Below are positions 4,521 to 11,044 of a DNA stretch of 64,000 nt, piece after piece. The DNA comes from an uncultured Alphaproteobacteria bacterium. Lineage in GTDB: Bacteria; Pseudomonadota; Alphaproteobacteria; GCA-2731375. Position 1 is the first letter of the stretch. Each line of letters begins with the position of its first letter. Both the position numbers and the translations under genes were made by a program. The DNA lies in NCBI GenBank assembly GCA_951812805.1, contig CATOSZ010000005.1, positions 310,001-374,000 of the forward strand, read 5' to 3'. The notes beneath the pieces were generated by a model that saw only the letters and a program-made list of their open reading frames with translations, was not told the DNA's origin and searched no databases.

Positions 4521-4889
4521 CTACTGGCTCGACGGCAGCAATCGAATATGTTGCACTTTCACAAAACGATTTGCACTGTCGACGCATTCATCTTCATCAA
4601 TTATCTCGATGACGATCAAGCGATTCAATGCGGTTGCCATAAGAAGAATGGCATACATTTCTTTGAAGTCATTGTTGTTTTCTGTTTTGTCGATTCCGAA
4701 AATCGTAGGTTGGCTGCATGTTGTCGGGAATGACACCTGTTCGCCATTCTTCAATGCGGTAACACGTATATATTCGGGACCCCCAACCCAAATTTCCTCC
4801 ACCTCAAGGTTTCGAACAACCCCAGCTGACGCCGCTTCCGACAAGAAAAGCGCCAACGCAATCGTCAAAATGTGAAATCCCACTCTCAT
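4521..4889 (-). CDS. small secreted protein, unknown function
   Basis: A 122-residue protein. The start at 4889 gives a clear signal peptide (MRVGFHILTIALALFLSEAASA), and an AGAGGTAGGG-like ribosome site lies just upstream. The mature part is a short beta-rich domain with only two cysteines, in TTCSQ and DECVDS. They are placed so that one disulfide across the periplasmic domain is likely. A segment FKEMYAILLMATALNRLIVIEI resembles a widespread class of uncharacterised 100-140 residue exported proteins with a MYA.LL..A...K hallmark. The neighbours are IS remnants, and GC is much lower than in the rest of the window, so it probably arrived by horizontal transfer. No function can be given. Confidence 0.65.
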   Translation of the reverse strand: MRVGFHILTIALALFLSEAASAGVVRNLEVEEIWVGGPEYIRVTALKNGEQVSFPTTCSQPTIFGIDKTENNNDFKEMYAILLMATALNRLIVIEIIDEDECVDSANRFVKVQHIRLLPSSQ

Positions 4890-5765
4890 GATTGACCCTA
4901 CCTCTATGTCAAACCCATGCGCCACCAATATACATTACCTTGAAATATAGGCTAGCAATTTATATTCAGAATGTCAATTCACTATTCCACAACACCTTCC
5001 ATGCATCGGTTCCTGGTCCGTGTCTGTTCCGACACGAGAGGCCAGAAATTGCGCAAAGGTACTCTCTAGCCAATGCTGCCATTATTACATATATCAATAT
5101 AAATACATATTTATTCTTTATAGTTGCTGCCTCGGCTAACGGCGACCAACCGGAGCGGGGTCAATCTTTTCAACTGGATGTCCCGGATACCTTAGGTGAC
5201 ATAATCCAAAGAAAAAATGTAGCAGTACGGAGGCGATGGGTGGCGAGTAAGACGGATTGCCGAGGTGGTCAGCGAGGACGGGAACGGATCCGGGTTTTAC
5301 GGCAGCCGAGGCCACTCTGATTTCGGAAGCGCCCGAGCCGAGCAACGTCTCATTGGAGACCGTCGACCTGCCCTCGTGGACATAGCGGGTGCCAAGCCCT
5401 TCGGCGTCTGCCCCTCTTCGCATACGCGGCGCACGGTCTCGGTGCGACTATGCCGGATCAGGGGCACATTCTTGAGGATGTCCCTTCGGCCTCTCCGTGG
5501 AAACTTCCGATGCGCCAATCAACGGTTTCCTCGGTCCGGGCCGAGTGGACAACCTATTGAGAGATCATAGCTAGCCCGCATCCCTTGACATGCCGCCCCG
5601 CACAACCGAGCGCGCCAGCTGCAGTCACCGCCACCTCATCCTCCATTCTTGCAACGCCACAAGTCATGACCTTTGCAAAACTTGTGATTGCCACATTGCA
5701 GAGGAGGTCGCCGACAGAACAGAGTACGCGTGACACCACCCGGCCTTCACCAAATCGATGGTGAC
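4890..5765. other. gene-poor stretch, AT-rich then GC-rich
   Basis: Positions 4930-5130 are strikingly AT-rich for this genome; 5250-5765 return to high GC. Short open frames exist on both strands (for example 5265-5570 plus, 5297-5518 minus, 5554-5739 minus), but none has a ribosome site plus a recognisable domain. The sharp composition change near 5.2 kb is probably the border between the acquired segment on the left and the core genome on the right. Confidence 0.5.
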
Positions 5766-7418
5766 CTATTCGGCGGCGACCGCTTCCCCGCCGCCCATCT
5801 CGAACCCTTCATAGCCCTTGGCGGCGATCTCGTCACAGGTCCGCTTGAAGCGATCGAAGCCGCCGACATAGGGCATGAACACCCGCGGCTTGCCCGGGAT
5901 GTTGGCGCCGACGTACCAGGAATTGGCCAGCGGATAGAGCGTCCGGTTGGCGACCTCGTTGTTGTGCTCGACCCAGGCGTCCTCGGCCTGCTGGGTGACT
6001 TCGAAGCGGGAATGGCCGTGCTCGCGCATGTGGGTGAGGCAGTCGACGATCCAGTCCGTGTGTTGCTCGGCGCCGAGGATCATCTGCGCCTTGACCGAGG
6101 GGCTCTGCGGTCCGGTGATCATGAACAGGTTCGGGAAGCCCGCCATCGCCAGGCCGAGATAGCAGCGCGGGCCGCCCTCCCACTTCTCCTGGATGGTGAG
6201 GCCGCGGCCGTTCGACATCTCGATGTCGCGCAAGGCCCCGGTCATGGCGTCGAAGCCGGTAGCGAAGACCAGGGCGTCGAGCTCGTATTCGCTGCCGTCG
6301 GCGAGCCGTAGGCCTTTGGCCGTGATCTCCTCGATCGGCGCCTTGCGGACGTCGACCAGGTCGACGGTCTCGCGGTTGTAGGTCTCGAAATAGCCGGTAT
6401 CGAGGATCAGCCGCTTGGTGCCGATCGGGTGGTCGTAGGGGGTCAGCTTCTCCGCCGTCTCCGGGTCCTTGACGGTCTCGCGGATCTTCTGACGCACGAA
6501 CTCGCAGGCGGTCTCGTTCGCCTCCCGGCTCGTGAACAGGTCGTTGTAGGTATAGAGAAAGCTGATGGAGCCGCCTTCCGCCCACTTGCTTTCATAGGCG
6601 GCCTCGCGCTCCTCCGCGCTGACCTCCAGCGCCGATTGGCTGGGCGGCGGATATCCGGCAATGCCGAAGGGGGTGTCATAGGCGGCCTGGCGGCGATCGT
6701 CGTATTCGGCCTTGTGGCGTGCCTCCGTCGTCTTGTCCATGGGCGCGTTGCGCGCCGGCAGGCTGAACTGCGGGGTGCGCTGGAAGACCGTGAGGTGCGC
6801 GGCCTGGGCGGCGATGATCGGGATCGACTGCACACCGGACGAGCCGGTACCGATGCTGCCGACCCTGAGGCCGGAGAAGTCGACCCCCTCATGCGGCCAG
6901 AGGCCGGTGTGGTACCACTTGCCCTCGAAATTCTCGAGGCCCTTGACGTCGGGCACCCGCGGGGTCGAGAGGTTGCCCGTCGCCATGACGCAGAAACGGG
7001 CCCGGTGGCTTTCCCCGCGTTCGGTCCCGATCACCCATTGCCGGGCCGCCTCGTCGAAATGGGCTGAAGTCACCCGGGTCTCGAAAACCACATCGCGGCG
7101 CAGGTCGTGGCGGTCGGCGACGTGATTCACATAGCGCAGGATCTCCGGCTGGGTACCGTAGCGTTCCGGCCATTCCCATTCCTGCTGCAGGTCGGAATCG
7201 AAAGAATAGGAATACTCCAGGCTTTCGACGTCGCAACGGCAACCCGGATAGCGATTCCAGTACCAGGTACCACCGACCCCGTCGCCGGCTTCCAGGACCT
7301 TGACGCTGAGGCCCATGGCGCGAATTCGGTGCAGGGCATAAAGGCCGCTGACCCCCGCGCCGATAATGACGACGTCGAGGTCGAGGTTGCTCTGCTGAGG
7401 TGCGGTGGCGTCGGACAT
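5766..7418 (-). CDS. flavin monooxygenase, Baeyer-Villiger type
   Basis: A 550-residue class B flavoprotein monooxygenase, of the group that uses FAD, NADPH and O2 to insert oxygen next to a ketone. The start at 7418 is preceded by a CTGGAG ribosome site; an upstream in-frame ATG at 7442 lacks one. The FAD-binding GAGVSG lies at residues 20-25. The aromatic/YPGCRCD block lies at 51-63. The Baeyer-Villiger fingerprint FEGKWYHTGLWP lies at 164-175, and the NADPH-binding GTGSSG at 190-195. The C-terminal ATGFD motif is also present. The length is normal for cyclohexanone/phenylacetone-type enzymes. It stands alone on the minus strand, with no esterase or alcohol dehydrogenase beside it to suggest a substrate. 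The family is certain; the ketone is unknown. Confidence 0.92.
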   Translation of the reverse strand: MSDATAPQQSNLDLDVVIIGAGVSGLYALHRIRAMGLSVKVLEAGDGVGGTWYWNRYPGCRCDVESLEYSYSFDSDLQQEWEWPERYGTQPEILRYVNHVADRHDLRRDVVFETRVTSAHFDEAARQWVIGTERGESHRARFCVMATGNLSTPRVPDVKGLENFEGKWYHTGLWPHEGVDFSGLRVGSIGTGSSGVQSIPIIAAQAAHLTVFQRTPQFSLPARNAPMDKTTEARHKAEYDDRRQAAYDTPFGIAGYPPPSQSALEVSAEEREAAYESKWAEGGSISFLYTYNDLFTSREANETACEFVRQKIRETVKDPETAEKLTPYDHPIGTKRLILDTGYFETYNRETVDLVDVRKAPIEEITAKGLRLADGSEYELDALVFATGFDAMTGALRDIEMSNGRGLTIQEKWEGGPRCYLGLAMAGFPNLFMITGPQSPSVKAQMILGAEQHTDWIVDCLTHMREHGHSRFEVTQQAEDAWVEHNNEVANRTLYPLANSWYVGANIPGKPRVFMPYVGGFDRFKRTCDEIAAKGYEGFEMGGGEAVAAE

Positions 7419-7535
7419 GGATATCACTCCAGAGGATGGCATGCCGCGCCCGAGCTGATCGGCGCGGCAAAGGCGGGATCGACCGATAGGTGTCTAGGCA
7501 ACAATATCTCCGAATCCCCCGCGCGCGGTCAAATC

Positions 7536-9305
7536 CTACGATTCGCCCGCGTCGTTCGGACCAGCCCGCGGCAGGAGTATTTCGACGGTGGTCCCCTCCC
7601 CCTCCGTGCTGTCGAGCACGACGTGGCCGCCCGACTGCTTGGCGAAGCCGTAGACCATGGAGAGGCCCAGGCCGCTGCCGGCGCCGACCTCCTTCGTCGT
7701 GTAGAACGGTTCGAACGCGTGGCTGAGGTCGTGCGCGCTCATGCCGCTGCCATCGTCGATGACGGCGAGACTGACGTAGTCGCCCGGGCGCATCTCCACC
7801 TCCCCGTCGAGTTCATCGTCATCCAGACGACGATTGTGGCAGCGCAGGGTCAGCGTTCCACCGGCCGGCATGGCGTCGCGGGCGTTGATCGCCAGATTGA
7901 GCAGGGCGCTCTCCACCTGGCCCGGATCGGCGACGGTGGGCCAGAGATCAGCGGTCACCTCGATCTCCACACGAACGGTGTCGCCCAAGGTACGGGTCAA
8001 CAGATCCGTCATGCCATGCACCAGGGCCGCGAGGTCGAAGGCCCGTGGGCTCAATGGTTGCCTGCGAGAGAAGGCCAGCAGGCGCTGCGTCAACTCCGCG
8101 CCTCGCCGTCCCGCGCGCAATATCGCGGCGACCCGCTCGTCGCCCTCGTCGGCGCGCGCCAGCATCTCGGCATTACCCAACACGACGGCCAGCAGATTGT
8201 TGAAGTCGTGCGCGACGCCACCGGTCAGTCGGCCGACGAGCTCCACGTTCTGCGCCCGGCGCAACCCAGCCTCGGCCCGGCGCTGTTCGCTGACGTCGGT
8301 GGTAATCCCGCCGATCGCTTCGACGGCCCCCATGCCGTCGACGATGGGATAGCGCACGGTGCGCAGACTTCGCACCTCTTCGTCGTCGCCGGTGACCGTG
8401 TGTTCGCTTTCCAACGGCCGGGCGGTGGCGAGAACCTCCTCGTCGTCGCGCCGCTCGTGCTCGATCTCCGTCGCGGGCAGAATGTCGGCCAACGCACGGC
8501 CGATGACGTCCGCCTCGCGCCGACCGTACCGATCTTCCCAAGCCTGGTTGACGAGGAGGAACCGGCCCGCCGTATCCCGCAGGAAGATCTCCGCCGGCGA
8601 GGCGGCGATCAACGTGCGAAAGCGCAACTCCGCCCGGCGCAATTCCTCGCCACGCTCGCGCACCCGCGCCTCCAGGGTCCGGCTCAGCAGGTCGAGCTGG
8701 CGGCGCTCCAGAAACAGAATGGCGATCACGCCGAAGCCGAGCAGCAGGGCGATGATCAGAAAGACGAGAAGGGTGCGATGCAATTCCTCATGCTTGTCGT
8801 GCATGCGACCGCGCAAGGCGGCCTGCCGCATGACCGATTCCATCGTCACGGCATGGACCGGCTCGATGAGCCCGCGCAGGGCATGCTTCACCGCCCCGAT
8901 CGACGCCGTATCATGCGACTCCAACCCGGCGACCGTCGCTTCAAGATCATCAAGAACGCGCCTTAAGTTTGCGATCAGCGCCTCGGCGCCGGGGAGCCCG
9001 AGGTAATAGCGGCCGGTCTGGCCGGTGGAATTGGTATCCACCCGACTCCAAAGAACATTGAACCGATCCGACAGAACGTCGTGGTCCACCCTCGGATCGC
9101 CCTCGGCGAAACGATCGAGATAATCGATCAGGATCAACAGCTCGTAGTCGACCTGAAAGGCCAGGCCGGTCAGGTTTTCGCGGAAATGGTTCCGTGCGCG
9201 GTCTTGCTCTTGCGTCAAAACGTTGATCGAAACGAACGCGCCCGCCGAAAAGACAGCGATGGCCACCAACAACAGCCGGTTCAGATTTCTCAGGAGCCGG
9301 GACAT
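7536..9305 (-). CDS. membrane sensor histidine kinase with PAS domain
   Basis: A 589-residue sensor kinase. TM1 is at residues about 10-29 and a helical periplasmic sensing region at 30-178. TM2 is at about 179-199, followed by a short coiled coil and a PAS domain at about 228-345. The histidine-containing helix has the phospho-acceptor His366 in GVAHDFNN. The ATPase domain carries the N-box NLAINARDAMP, the G1 box DDGSGM and the G2 box GSGLGLS. This AHDFNN class usually signals to a response regulator or a fused receiver. The protein ends at the ATPase domain and no regulator is adjacent, so it is an orphan in this window. It begins 22 bases after the molybdopterin-domain-like gene and is almost surely co-transcribed with it. 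The stimulus is unknown. Confidence 0.92.
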   Translation of the reverse strand: MSRLLRNLNRLLLVAIAVFSAGAFVSINVLTQEQDRARNHFRENLTGLAFQVDYELLILIDYLDRFAEGDPRVDHDVLSDRFNVLWSRVDTNSTGQTGRYYLGLPGAEALIANLRRVLDDLEATVAGLESHDTASIGAVKHALRGLIEPVHAVTMESVMRQAALRGRMHDKHEELHRTLLVFLIIALLLGFGVIAILFLERRQLDLLSRTLEARVRERGEELRRAELRFRTLIAASPAEIFLRDTAGRFLLVNQAWEDRYGRREADVIGRALADILPATEIEHERRDDEEVLATARPLESEHTVTGDDEEVRSLRTVRYPIVDGMGAVEAIGGITTDVSEQRRAEAGLRRAQNVELVGRLTGGVAHDFNNLLAVVLGNAEMLARADEGDERVAAILRAGRRGAELTQRLLAFSRRQPLSPRAFDLAALVHGMTDLLTRTLGDTVRVEIEVTADLWPTVADPGQVESALLNLAINARDAMPAGGTLTLRCHNRRLDDDELDGEVEMRPGDYVSLAVIDDGSGMSAHDLSHAFEPFYTTKEVGAGSGLGLSMVYGFAKQSGGHVVLDSTEGEGTTVEILLPRAGPNDAGES

Positions 9306-9327
9306 GATACCGCCGTCGCCCGCGCCA

Positions 9328-9846
9328 TCAGCGCACCGTCAGTCGCTTCAACTGCCAGATCCCACGGGCGTAGTAGGTCTCATTGCGCAAGGCCGGATTG
9401 TCCGACCAGGGATAGATGATCCACAGCGGGCCCTTCTCGCGCACCGACATATAGTCACCGTTCAACTTCAAGGCGACGATGGGACCGTGTGCCGCCGCGT
9501 CGGATAGCGGAATGTCGACGGCATAATCGTTGATCGCCACCGCACGCATCCGATCTCCGCGCGCGCCGACAACGTGTAGCAACGCCTGGAGGGAAACGCC
9601 CTCGAAGCGCGATAGACCATCGGTCCAGGGCGTTTCTGTGACGATCTCGACGACATCCAATGCCTCCAGCATGGCTTTGTCGAAACGTGCCCCACCGGCC
9701 CCGTCGTTGGGGACGGCGATGGCCCCGTCGACGAGGAGCAGCACACGACCCGTCGGCCGGTCCAAGGCCGACGCGAAGCCCGGCATTCCCAACGCGCCCC
9801 ATCCCACCGCCAGCACGACCACCAGACAACGCCCAAAGATTTCCAT
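9328..9846 (-). CDS. periplasmic molybdopterin-oxidoreductase-domain-like protein
   Basis: A 172-residue protein. The start at 9846 has an AAAGGAG ribosome site and yields a signal peptide (residues 1-26, ending GFASA). The mature part resembles a minimal sulfite-oxidase-type molybdopterin-binding fold: an early RVLLLVDG strand, a 'FEGVSLQALLHVVGA' segment, an 'INDYAVDIPLSD' block and a C-terminal 'GPLWIIYPW ... IWQLKRLTV' block. These are the conserved pieces of short 'oxidoreductase molybdopterin-binding' proteins often found beside GGDEF or histidine kinase genes. No cysteine that could ligate molybdenum is visible, so I infer a ligand-binding partner for the kinase rather than an enzyme. 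It is the first gene of a two-gene operon with the kinase. Confidence 0.65.
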   Translation of the reverse strand: MEIFGRCLVVVLAVGWGALGMPGFASALDRPTGRVLLLVDGAIAVPNDGAGGARFDKAMLEALDVVEIVTETPWTDGLSRFEGVSLQALLHVVGARGDRMRAVAINDYAVDIPLSDAAAHGPIVALKLNGDYMSVREKGPLWIIYPWSDNPALRNETYYARGIWQLKRLTVR

Positions 9847-9930
9847 TGCCGAAACTCCTTTCGCACTGCACGAACTCGGCGAGCCGACATGACCCCGTAT
9901 CCAAACCCACCATACAGATAAGTCTCTTAA

Positions 9931-9958
9931 TTGAAACATAACGCCTTTATCATACACT
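9931..9958 (+). promoter_or_regulatory. candidate sigma70 promoter for the 10.0-14.1 kb operon
   Basis: TTGAAA at 9931-9936 and TACACT at 9953-9958 are separated by 16 bases, in an AT-rich divergent intergenic region. It points at the amidohydrolase operon, leaving a leader of about 70 bases. Judged by eye only. Confidence 0.5.
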
Positions 9959-10036
9959 AGTATGTCGGCGGAGATTTGGATTTCCGCCCGACGAGCCGCT
10001 AGACTCGCGTCCGTCACTTGGGGGGAGGAGGCGCTC

Positions 10037-11044
10037 ATGGCCGGCATCGAAGAGGCCCGCGTCATCGACGTGCATGCCCACGTGGTCCTCGCCGAGACGA
10101 TGGGCACCGCCGGCGCGCACGGCCCGGAAATCTCCATCGGGCCCGACGGCATCCCCCGCTTCCGGGTCTGCGACTATGTGCTGGACGGCGTGCGCTACGA
10201 GGGCAGCCCCTTCATGGACGTCGGCCTTCGTTTGTCGCGCATGGACCAGGCCGGCATCGACTACCAGCTGCTATCGCCCAATCCGTTGACCTACTTCCAC
10301 CATGTCGGCACTGCGGACGCGCTCGCCTTCTGCCGGATGAACAACGAGGGCGTGGCGGCGATCCGCCAGGCCTATCCCGACCGGCTCGGCGGTTTCGCCG
10401 CGCTGCCGATGCAGGACATCGGCGCGGCCTGCGAGGAGTTGCGCCGCGGCGTCGAGGAGCTGGGCCTGGCCGCCGGCTATATCGGCACCGACACCGGCCG
10501 GCCGCTGCACGATGCGGAGATGGACCGCTTCTACGAGACCTGCGTGGCGCTCGACGTGCCCTTGTTCCTGCACCCGGCGCCGGCCGGGATCGACGGGCCG
10601 GCGGGCGATCCCAACCTGAAGCATTTCGACCTCGACGTGGTCATCGGCTTTGCCGCGCAGGAGGCGATCGCCGCCGCCTCGCTGATCTACGGCGAGGTGC
10701 TGGATCGTTTCCCCACCCTCGACATCTGCATGAGCCATGGCGGCGGCTCGACCGCCTTTCTGATCGGCCGCATGGCGCGCGCCGCCGAGCGCCGCCCCTG
10801 GTCGCCCGAACAGCTCCGGCCCGAAGGGGCGTTCGAGGAACGGTTTCGCCGGCTCTGGTTCGACACGCACCTGAACGCGCCCGCCTCCCTCGCTTTGCTG
10901 CGCAGCCTGATCGACGAAGCGCATCTGGTCTACGGCACCAACTTCGTCGGCTGGGACGCGCCGGACGCGGCGGGGGGCGCGCCGCCCGACCCGAGCCTCG
11001 CCGACAATGCCCGCCGCCTGCTGCGGCGCGAATCGCGGAGTTGA
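10037..11044 (+). CDS. metal-dependent amidohydrolase (ACMSD-like, Amidohydro_2)
   Basis: A 335-residue TIM-barrel hydrolase or decarboxylase. I use ATG 10037 because a GGGGGAGGAG ribosome site sits before it; the frame extends upstream without one. The metal-binding motif DVHAHV is at residues 11-16 (His13, His15). A barrel histidine appears in FLHPAP and another in SHGGGS. The last expected Asp region reads YGTNFVGWD rather than GTDFP. This subfamily includes 2-amino-3-carboxymuconate-semialdehyde decarboxylase and 5-carboxyvanillate or gamma-resorcylate decarboxylases, so ring-acid decarboxylation or hydrolysis of a ring-cleavage product is likely. It is the first gene of a four-gene operon ending in a Rieske oxygenase, which supports a role in aromatic breakdown. 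The substrate is not known. Confidence 0.85.
   Translation: MAGIEEARVIDVHAHVVLAETMGTAGAHGPEISIGPDGIPRFRVCDYVLDGVRYEGSPFMDVGLRLSRMDQAGIDYQLLSPNPLTYFHHVGTADALAFCRMNNEGVAAIRQAYPDRLGGFAALPMQDIGAACEELRRGVEELGLAAGYIGTDTGRPLHDAEMDRFYETCVALDVPLFLHPAPAGIDGPAGDPNLKHFDLDVVIGFAAQEAIAAASLIYGEVLDRFPTLDICMSHGGGSTAFLIGRMARAAERRPWSPEQLRPEGAFEERFRRLWFDTHLNAPASLALLRSLIDEAHLVYGTNFVGWDAPDAAGGAPPDPSLADNARRLLRRESRS

Follow-up and report, generated by a model that had tools for sequence, protein, structure and literature searches.

What does a small exported protein with a molybdenum-enzyme-like fold do directly in front of a sensor kinase gene, and do the two work together? The question arises from a stretch of 64,000 nucleotides of an uncultured alphaproteobacterium (the window), in which a sequence-only reading had placed the two open reading frames 22 bases apart. 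Their coordinates were confirmed on the minus strand, and the locus consists of the following features:

7536..9305, minus strand: sensor histidine kinase, 589 aa (Pfam, sensor profile, AlphaFold model of residues 1-230)
8616..9305, minus strand: kinase residues 1-230, with TM1, PruR-receptor domain and TM2 (alignments and model)
9306..9327, minus strand: gap of 22 bases between pruR and the kinase gene (coordinates)
9328..9846, minus strand: PruR-type periplasmic pterin-binding protein (P0001), 172 aa (phmmer to 7kos, model superposition, alignment)

The exported protein and its predicted pterin pocket

The reading frame of the exported protein encodes 172 aa from an ATG at 9846, with an upstream opening possible as far as 10152. 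Its N-terminus (MEIFGRCLVVVLAVGWGALGMPGFASA) is a hydrophobic stretch ending in ASA, and residues 1-27, read by eye, are likely a signal peptide, giving the secretion signal and the length of about 170 aa expected of a PruR protein. The sole cysteine, C7, lies within this signal peptide and leaves the mature chain without any. The absence of a molybdenum-binding cysteine had already been noted from the sequence; it agrees with PruR and disagrees with a sulfite oxidase-family molybdenum enzyme, in which a cysteine ligates the metal. Pfam PF00174 scores 23.0 bits on the protein, just below the cut-off of 24, and for want of one bit the protein would go unnamed in a simple domain scan; an NCBIfam scan of P0001 assigned no family.

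In a phmmer search against solved structures, the protein matched the PDB entry "Pterin Binding Protein" 7kos, the PruR of Agrobacterium tumefaciens (7KOS/7KOU), with an E-value of 1.6e-41, and further PDB sequence matches were 7rkb (4e-36), 7kp2 (3e-26), and 7kom (1.6e-22). An AlphaFold model built on a 41-row alignment (pLDDT 89.6) matched 7kos with a TM-score of 0.95-0.98, normalised by target, and superposed on this A. tumefaciens structure at 0.6-1.4 Å; the values for 7kos_D, 7kou_A, and the neopterin-containing 7rkb are 0.6-0.8 Å. PruR structures fill the first seven ranks of the fold search and come from Agrobacterium, Klebsiella, and two species of Vibrio. They are followed, from an E-value of 1e-6 on, by sulfite oxidases and dehydrogenases, and the sulfite oxidase-type core fold makes up most of ranks 8-45. 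The fold proposed by the sequence-only reading is thus borne out, and sequence and predicted structure agree in identifying the exported 172-aa protein as PruR, a periplasmic pterin-binding protein.

The primary paper behind the account of PruR is reportedly Greenwich et al. (2024, PNAS), cited here, like Feirer et al. (2015), through a review. In the consulted part of that review, PruR is described as a periplasmic protein of SUOX-type fold that lacks a Mo-ligating cysteine and binds a reduced pterin, in A. tumefaciens in a pocket with Asn102, Tyr104, and Trp160 (PMC13259868). The aligned residues of the window protein are N106, Y108, and W164, and these three, together with Q165, are invariant among 41 PruR homologues (alignment A2). 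By homology, the ligand would probably be a reduced pterin, a tetrahydromonapterin-like compound.

The kinase and the conserved gene pair

According to the same part of the review, PruR docks on the periplasmic domain of a neighbouring protein, either DcpA, which is of the GGDEF-EAL type, or, in DTB, a sensor kinase, the PruR-DTB regulator combining a DcpA-type periplasmic domain with a sensor kinase and, optionally, PAS and receiver domains (PMC13259868). The kinase of the window has this layout, with TM1 at about residues 8-30, a periplasmic helical PruR-receptor domain at about 31-178, and TM2 at about 179-200 (TM limits by eye), followed by PAS (PAS_4, 235-343), HisKA (358-416), and HATPase_c (460-580) domains in Pfam, which together provide a histidine kinase output. 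H366 is the likely phospho-acceptor and is invariant in alignment A1, which comprises 40 loci and the genome's two own kinases (42 members). Pfam detected no receiver domain in the kinase, and no receiver remnant was seen in three frames over the 145 bases past its stop codon.

The helical periplasmic sensor suggested from the sequence stood up to modelling: residues 1-230 are almost entirely helical in the AlphaFold model m5e3eb60e85f1 (pLDDT 92.6). A profile of 37 other PruR-adjacent sensor domains, with the own kinase excluded, matched kinase residues 40-190 with 61.6 bits, compared with 7.7 bits for the best of 200 shuffles of the first 230 residues, and two further kinases from this genome that served as decoys were absent among the matches listed for this profile. 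A larger profile, likewise excluding the own kinase, gave 99.9 bits over residues 23-204. These leave-out profiles, which include GGDEF-type partners, identify the kinase by homology as a PruR receptor with a DcpA-type helical domain. Searched against PDB chains, the sensor domain had no sequence match, and a fold search returned only weak matches.

As in PruR-DTB, pruR comes first and the kinase second in a two-gene unit, on the same strand, and no terminator-like site was found in 7350-10050. The pair is flanked by a divergent amidohydrolase gene (PF04909), whose frame starts at 9962 on the plus strand, and, 93 bases past the kinase, by a minus-strand gene resembling flavin-binding monooxygenases (5766-7442). 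In agreement with the sequence-only reading, no response regulator adjoins the pair: all 84 receiver-domain matches of the genome fall outside the window, the closest of those on this contig at a distance of about 22.9 kb.

The two genes also stay together in relatives. In 41 of the 43 loci of a first search for close PruR homologues, the two genes are adjacent and ordered as in the window, which argues that the pairing is not due to chance. Pfam was run on 40 of the 41 signalling partners, omitting L011 owing to its frame-shifted kinase, and assigned 39 as kinases and one as a GGDEF-EAL protein. The two exceptions are L016, where nothing kinase-like occurs in the 905 bases remaining on the contig piece, and L040 (5001-5492), where an insert interrupts the pruR homologue near its 3' end and carries a transposase-like ORF, IS66-like by eye, on the opposite strand. 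In a wider draw of 118 loci from the class and phylum, the chosen downstream ORF was a kinase (n = 84) or a GGDEF protein (n = 21) by profile in 105 loci, a kinase lay elsewhere in the stretch in five, and neither was found in eight; in three of these eight, the receptor domain is present but joined to a different output. The distribution of the pair is nonetheless patchy: of 61 genomes examined, 9 have a match, this genome among them. None of the 14 other genomes of the family that were searched has a relative, so the pair is not a core trait of the family.

A second, diverged pair is encoded on the same contig (L047:4111-4671 and 4682-6496, corresponding to G000:C5:142110-144495). Its 187-aa PruR matches 7rkb at 1.1e-15, with Asp replacing the pocket Asn, and the kinase 7 bases downstream is a HisKA-HATPase-receiver hybrid with no WX7E motif at the aligned place.

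Several other PruR loci found along the way differ in output or genetic setting. PruR homologues are followed by receptor-domain proteins (119, 67, and 104 bits, respectively) at L107:508-2625 (plus strand), L090:849-2726 (minus strand), and L095:514 onward (plus strand). The output in L107 and L090 consists of a PAS domain and a class III nucleotide cyclase (PF00211), and L095 contains a similar cyclase stretch in another frame after a run of N. The two configurations given in the available text of the review are c-di-GMP enzymes and kinases (PMC13259868), and no PruR-cyclase pair was found in a paper search or in that text when searched for adenylate cyclase, cAMP, and nucleotidyl cyclase (PMC13259868). 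Such pairs would connect periplasmic pterins to cAMP or cGMP. PruR with a hybrid sensor kinase is also encoded on conjugative plasmids of Enterobacteriaceae, namely E. coli pPO125 (L202) and K. pneumoniae NZ_CP101767.1 (L203). The genes lie close to conjugation genes and are preceded by an HTH gene and a hypothetical gene. A PruR-like match occurs in 624 plasmid records, of which 264 are named Klebsiella and 390 are typed conjugative. At L200:6154-7224, on the A. tumefaciens plasmid pAtCFBP6623a, an HD-domain phosphohydrolase gene follows a PruR-kinase pair, possibly indicating a c-di-GMP output for a pair of the kinase type. Outside the Proteobacteria, Phycicoccus sonneratiae, an actinobacterium by name, encodes a PruR-like protein with an apparent lipoprotein signal beside a hybrid kinase (L043:5001-5423 and 5431-7692), whose receptor domain scores weakly (14.6 bits).

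Receptor motif, receiver domain and co-variation

The WX7E motif is present in the vast majority of receptors, though not in all, according to the part of the review consulted (PMC13259868). In the window kinase, it is replaced by GX7E (G47, E55), in which the Trp is missing and the Glu is kept; further receptor residues noted are Q51 and W86-S87-R88. Trp occupies this position in 140 of 154 pairs and is absent in 14. These 154 pairs are what was left once 17 identifiers had been excluded by hand because the partner was truncated, mis-framed, or absent or the alignment doubtful (L040, L043, L045, L046, L161, the second pair of this genome, and eleven more; L016 has no partner). Gly is also found at the Trp position in L069, L083, and L091 (all family f42), L169, and L045. 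A receiver domain is present in 40 of the 42 A1 members, the two without it being the window kinase and, presumably, the GGDEF-EAL protein, and five of seven other kinase partners scanned are likewise receiver-less.

PruR itself carries a Trp at position 147 (YPW vs. YPY/YPF), a state found in 8 of the 154 pairs, with Tyr or Phe in 97. A receptor lacking the WX7E Trp accompanies six of the eight PruRs with W147, compared with 8 of the 146 without it. Among the excluded pairs, the genome's second pair and L043 break this pattern, having R instead of the W and lacking W147, and L046 has F at the W position with no clean PruR alignment at 147. A compensatory swap, in which receptor W47 was lost as PruR W147 was gained, found no significant support: its mutual information was unremarkable, with a z-score of 1.4 (rank 2688 of 33415), and on the PruR tree the three well-supported independent contrasts agreed in direction 1.8 times on average and were never significant.

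A second, stronger association concerns receptor W86. PruR 147 is neither Tyr nor Phe in 39 of the 40 pairs with W86 (Tyr or Phe in one), compared with 18 of the 114 pairs without it (Tyr or Phe in 96). Once kinship was allowed for, this association was not significant, with three supported contrasts on the PruR tree and five on the sensor tree. In the list of highest mutual information, PruR positions 147, 153, 159, and 162 recur with receptor positions 26, 30, 43, 46, 54, and 86, but receptor positions far along the chain (e.g. 122, 158, and 200) are also present, so that the list is not a clean interface. Given the few supported contrasts and the lack of significance with kinship, the co-variation is only a lead; the coupling of PruR 147 with receptor 86 is at most a hint at an interface. 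Somewhat speculatively, the loss of the WX7E Trp (to G or F), the gain of PruR W147, and the presence of W86 could mark a scattered branch with a rebuilt PruR-receptor interface and private pairing, perhaps for a different pterin or an opposite switch, although we consider this rather doubtful. If true, it would point to the contact surface of the PruR-receptor complex, for which structure searches found no solved example, and the co-variation offers specific residue changes to try in this complex.

Proposed function and comparison with known systems

Based on the identity of both parts, the fold, the pocket residues, the receptor-domain homology, and the conserved gene pairing, it is highly probable that the window genes form a PruR-kinase pair of the PruR-DTB kind, in which exported PruR, once loaded with a reduced pterin, docks on the kinase and sets its activity. 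For this particular pair, ligand binding, docking, the direction of the switch, and the output and its target would follow by homology. The small protein would be exported and take up the pterin in the shrunken cofactor pocket of its sulfite-oxidase fold. Pterin-loaded PruR would then dock on the kinase's helical sensor in the periplasm and shift the helices that run via TM2 into the PAS and HisKA domains, thereby setting the kinase activity (autophosphorylation of H366). As the kinase has no receiver and no regulator adjoins, the recipient of its phosphate would probably be a response regulator or a phosphotransfer protein whose gene lies elsewhere. The suggestion of the sequence-only reading that a retired enzyme fold serves as the ligand-binding half of a receptor pair was therefore right in outline, although it did not name the family and the principle is already published (PMC13259868). 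Neither of the two outcomes that would have spoken against it, a missing fold match or separation of the genes in relatives, was observed.

Elsewhere in the genome, a short-chain dehydrogenase/reductase (SDR; G000:C3:293872-294576) overlaps the FolB gene (PF02152, 2e-25) and exceeds the cut-off of NF006597 (297 vs. 281 bits). It contains TGAGKRIG, which fits TGX3RXG, a motif that we take to be the pteridine reductase signature. It falls short of the cut-offs of two "pteridine reductase" models of NCBIfam, with 166 of the required 288 bits and 99 of the required 321.7 bits, and a genome search with TIGR02685 and NF006598 returned dozens of SDRs (62 and 52 rows, this one included), none above cut-off. 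On sequence grounds, it is a fair candidate for a pteridine reductase. Its presence counts in favour of the PruR-kinase reading; its scores below cut-off count against it, as do the Gly in the receptor motif, the lack of relatives in the family, and the loci in which pruR has no such partner (L016 and 8 of the 118).

Three other explanations of the locus have to be weighed. That the pocket is re-used for a small molecule other than a pterin, with GX7E reflecting this change, would accommodate the altered motif, the W147 of PruR where most homologues have Tyr or Phe (97/154), and the patchy distribution. However, the Asn, Tyr, and Trp named in the consulted part of the review are all kept (PMC13259868), and the close superposition at 0.6-0.8 Å extends to the neopterin-bound 7rkb, making a non-pterin ligand unlikely. 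Decay of the unit would likewise explain the Gly in the receptor, the missing receiver domain, which only one other A1 partner presumably shares (2/42), and the lack of homologues in sister genomes (0/14), and the pair would then be heading for loss. Yet both reading frames are intact, H366 and the ATPase domain are kept, receiver-less kinase partners are common elsewhere (5/7 scanned), and five other loci share the Gly state, so that we regard decay as quite improbable.

It is scarcely credible that the exported protein has remained a molybdenum-cofactor enzyme and lies beside the kinase by happenstance. The PF00174 match and homologues annotated as "molybdopterin-dependent oxidoreductase" would fit such an enzyme, but the mature chain has no cysteine, its nearest structures are pterin-binding PruR proteins, the kinase pairing is conserved, and the genome encodes a separate full-length MsrP-type enzyme (C3:285047; NF003767, 409 bits). 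MsrP and sulfite oxidase enzymes (PF00174) have the core fold in common with PruR; they are much larger, ligate molybdenum through a cysteine, and are catalytic.

The preferred reading, a PruR-kinase pair, has parallels in other systems. QseG-QseE and XylFII-LytS follow the same principle, in that the helical periplasmic domain of a kinase serves as docking site for an exported partner, and the window sensor has weak fold similarity to them (E-values of 8.5e-3 and 7.3e-2, respectively). The partner proteins in these two systems have folds other than that of PruR. Closer is PruR-DcpA of A. tumefaciens (7KOS, Atu3496), whose PruR is 46-47% identical in the model superposition, with the same pocket residues and gene order; a GGDEF-EAL enzyme that acts on c-di-GMP provides the output in that system, whereas in the window it is a histidine kinase. 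The study of periplasmic pterin sensing is young, and in the part of the review consulted a worked-out mechanism is given only for this c-di-GMP branch with DcpA (PMC13259868). The compact, receiver-less kinase with its altered receptor motif lends itself to testing whether docking needs WX7E, although the window pair is itself ordinary for its kind. The nearest likeness is to PruR-DTB as described in the accessible text (e.g. Ruegeria pomeroyi WP_011045932.1; PMC13259868), with which it shares two genes in the order PruR first, an exported protein of about 170 aa without Mo-ligating cysteine, and a partner with DcpA-type periplasmic, PAS, HisKA, and HATPase domains, while differing in the Gly in place of the WX7E Trp and in the absence of a receiver domain. 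The pair is thus real, well-formed, and known as a kind, with small departures only, and it has every testable feature of PruR-DTB except the WX7E Trp.
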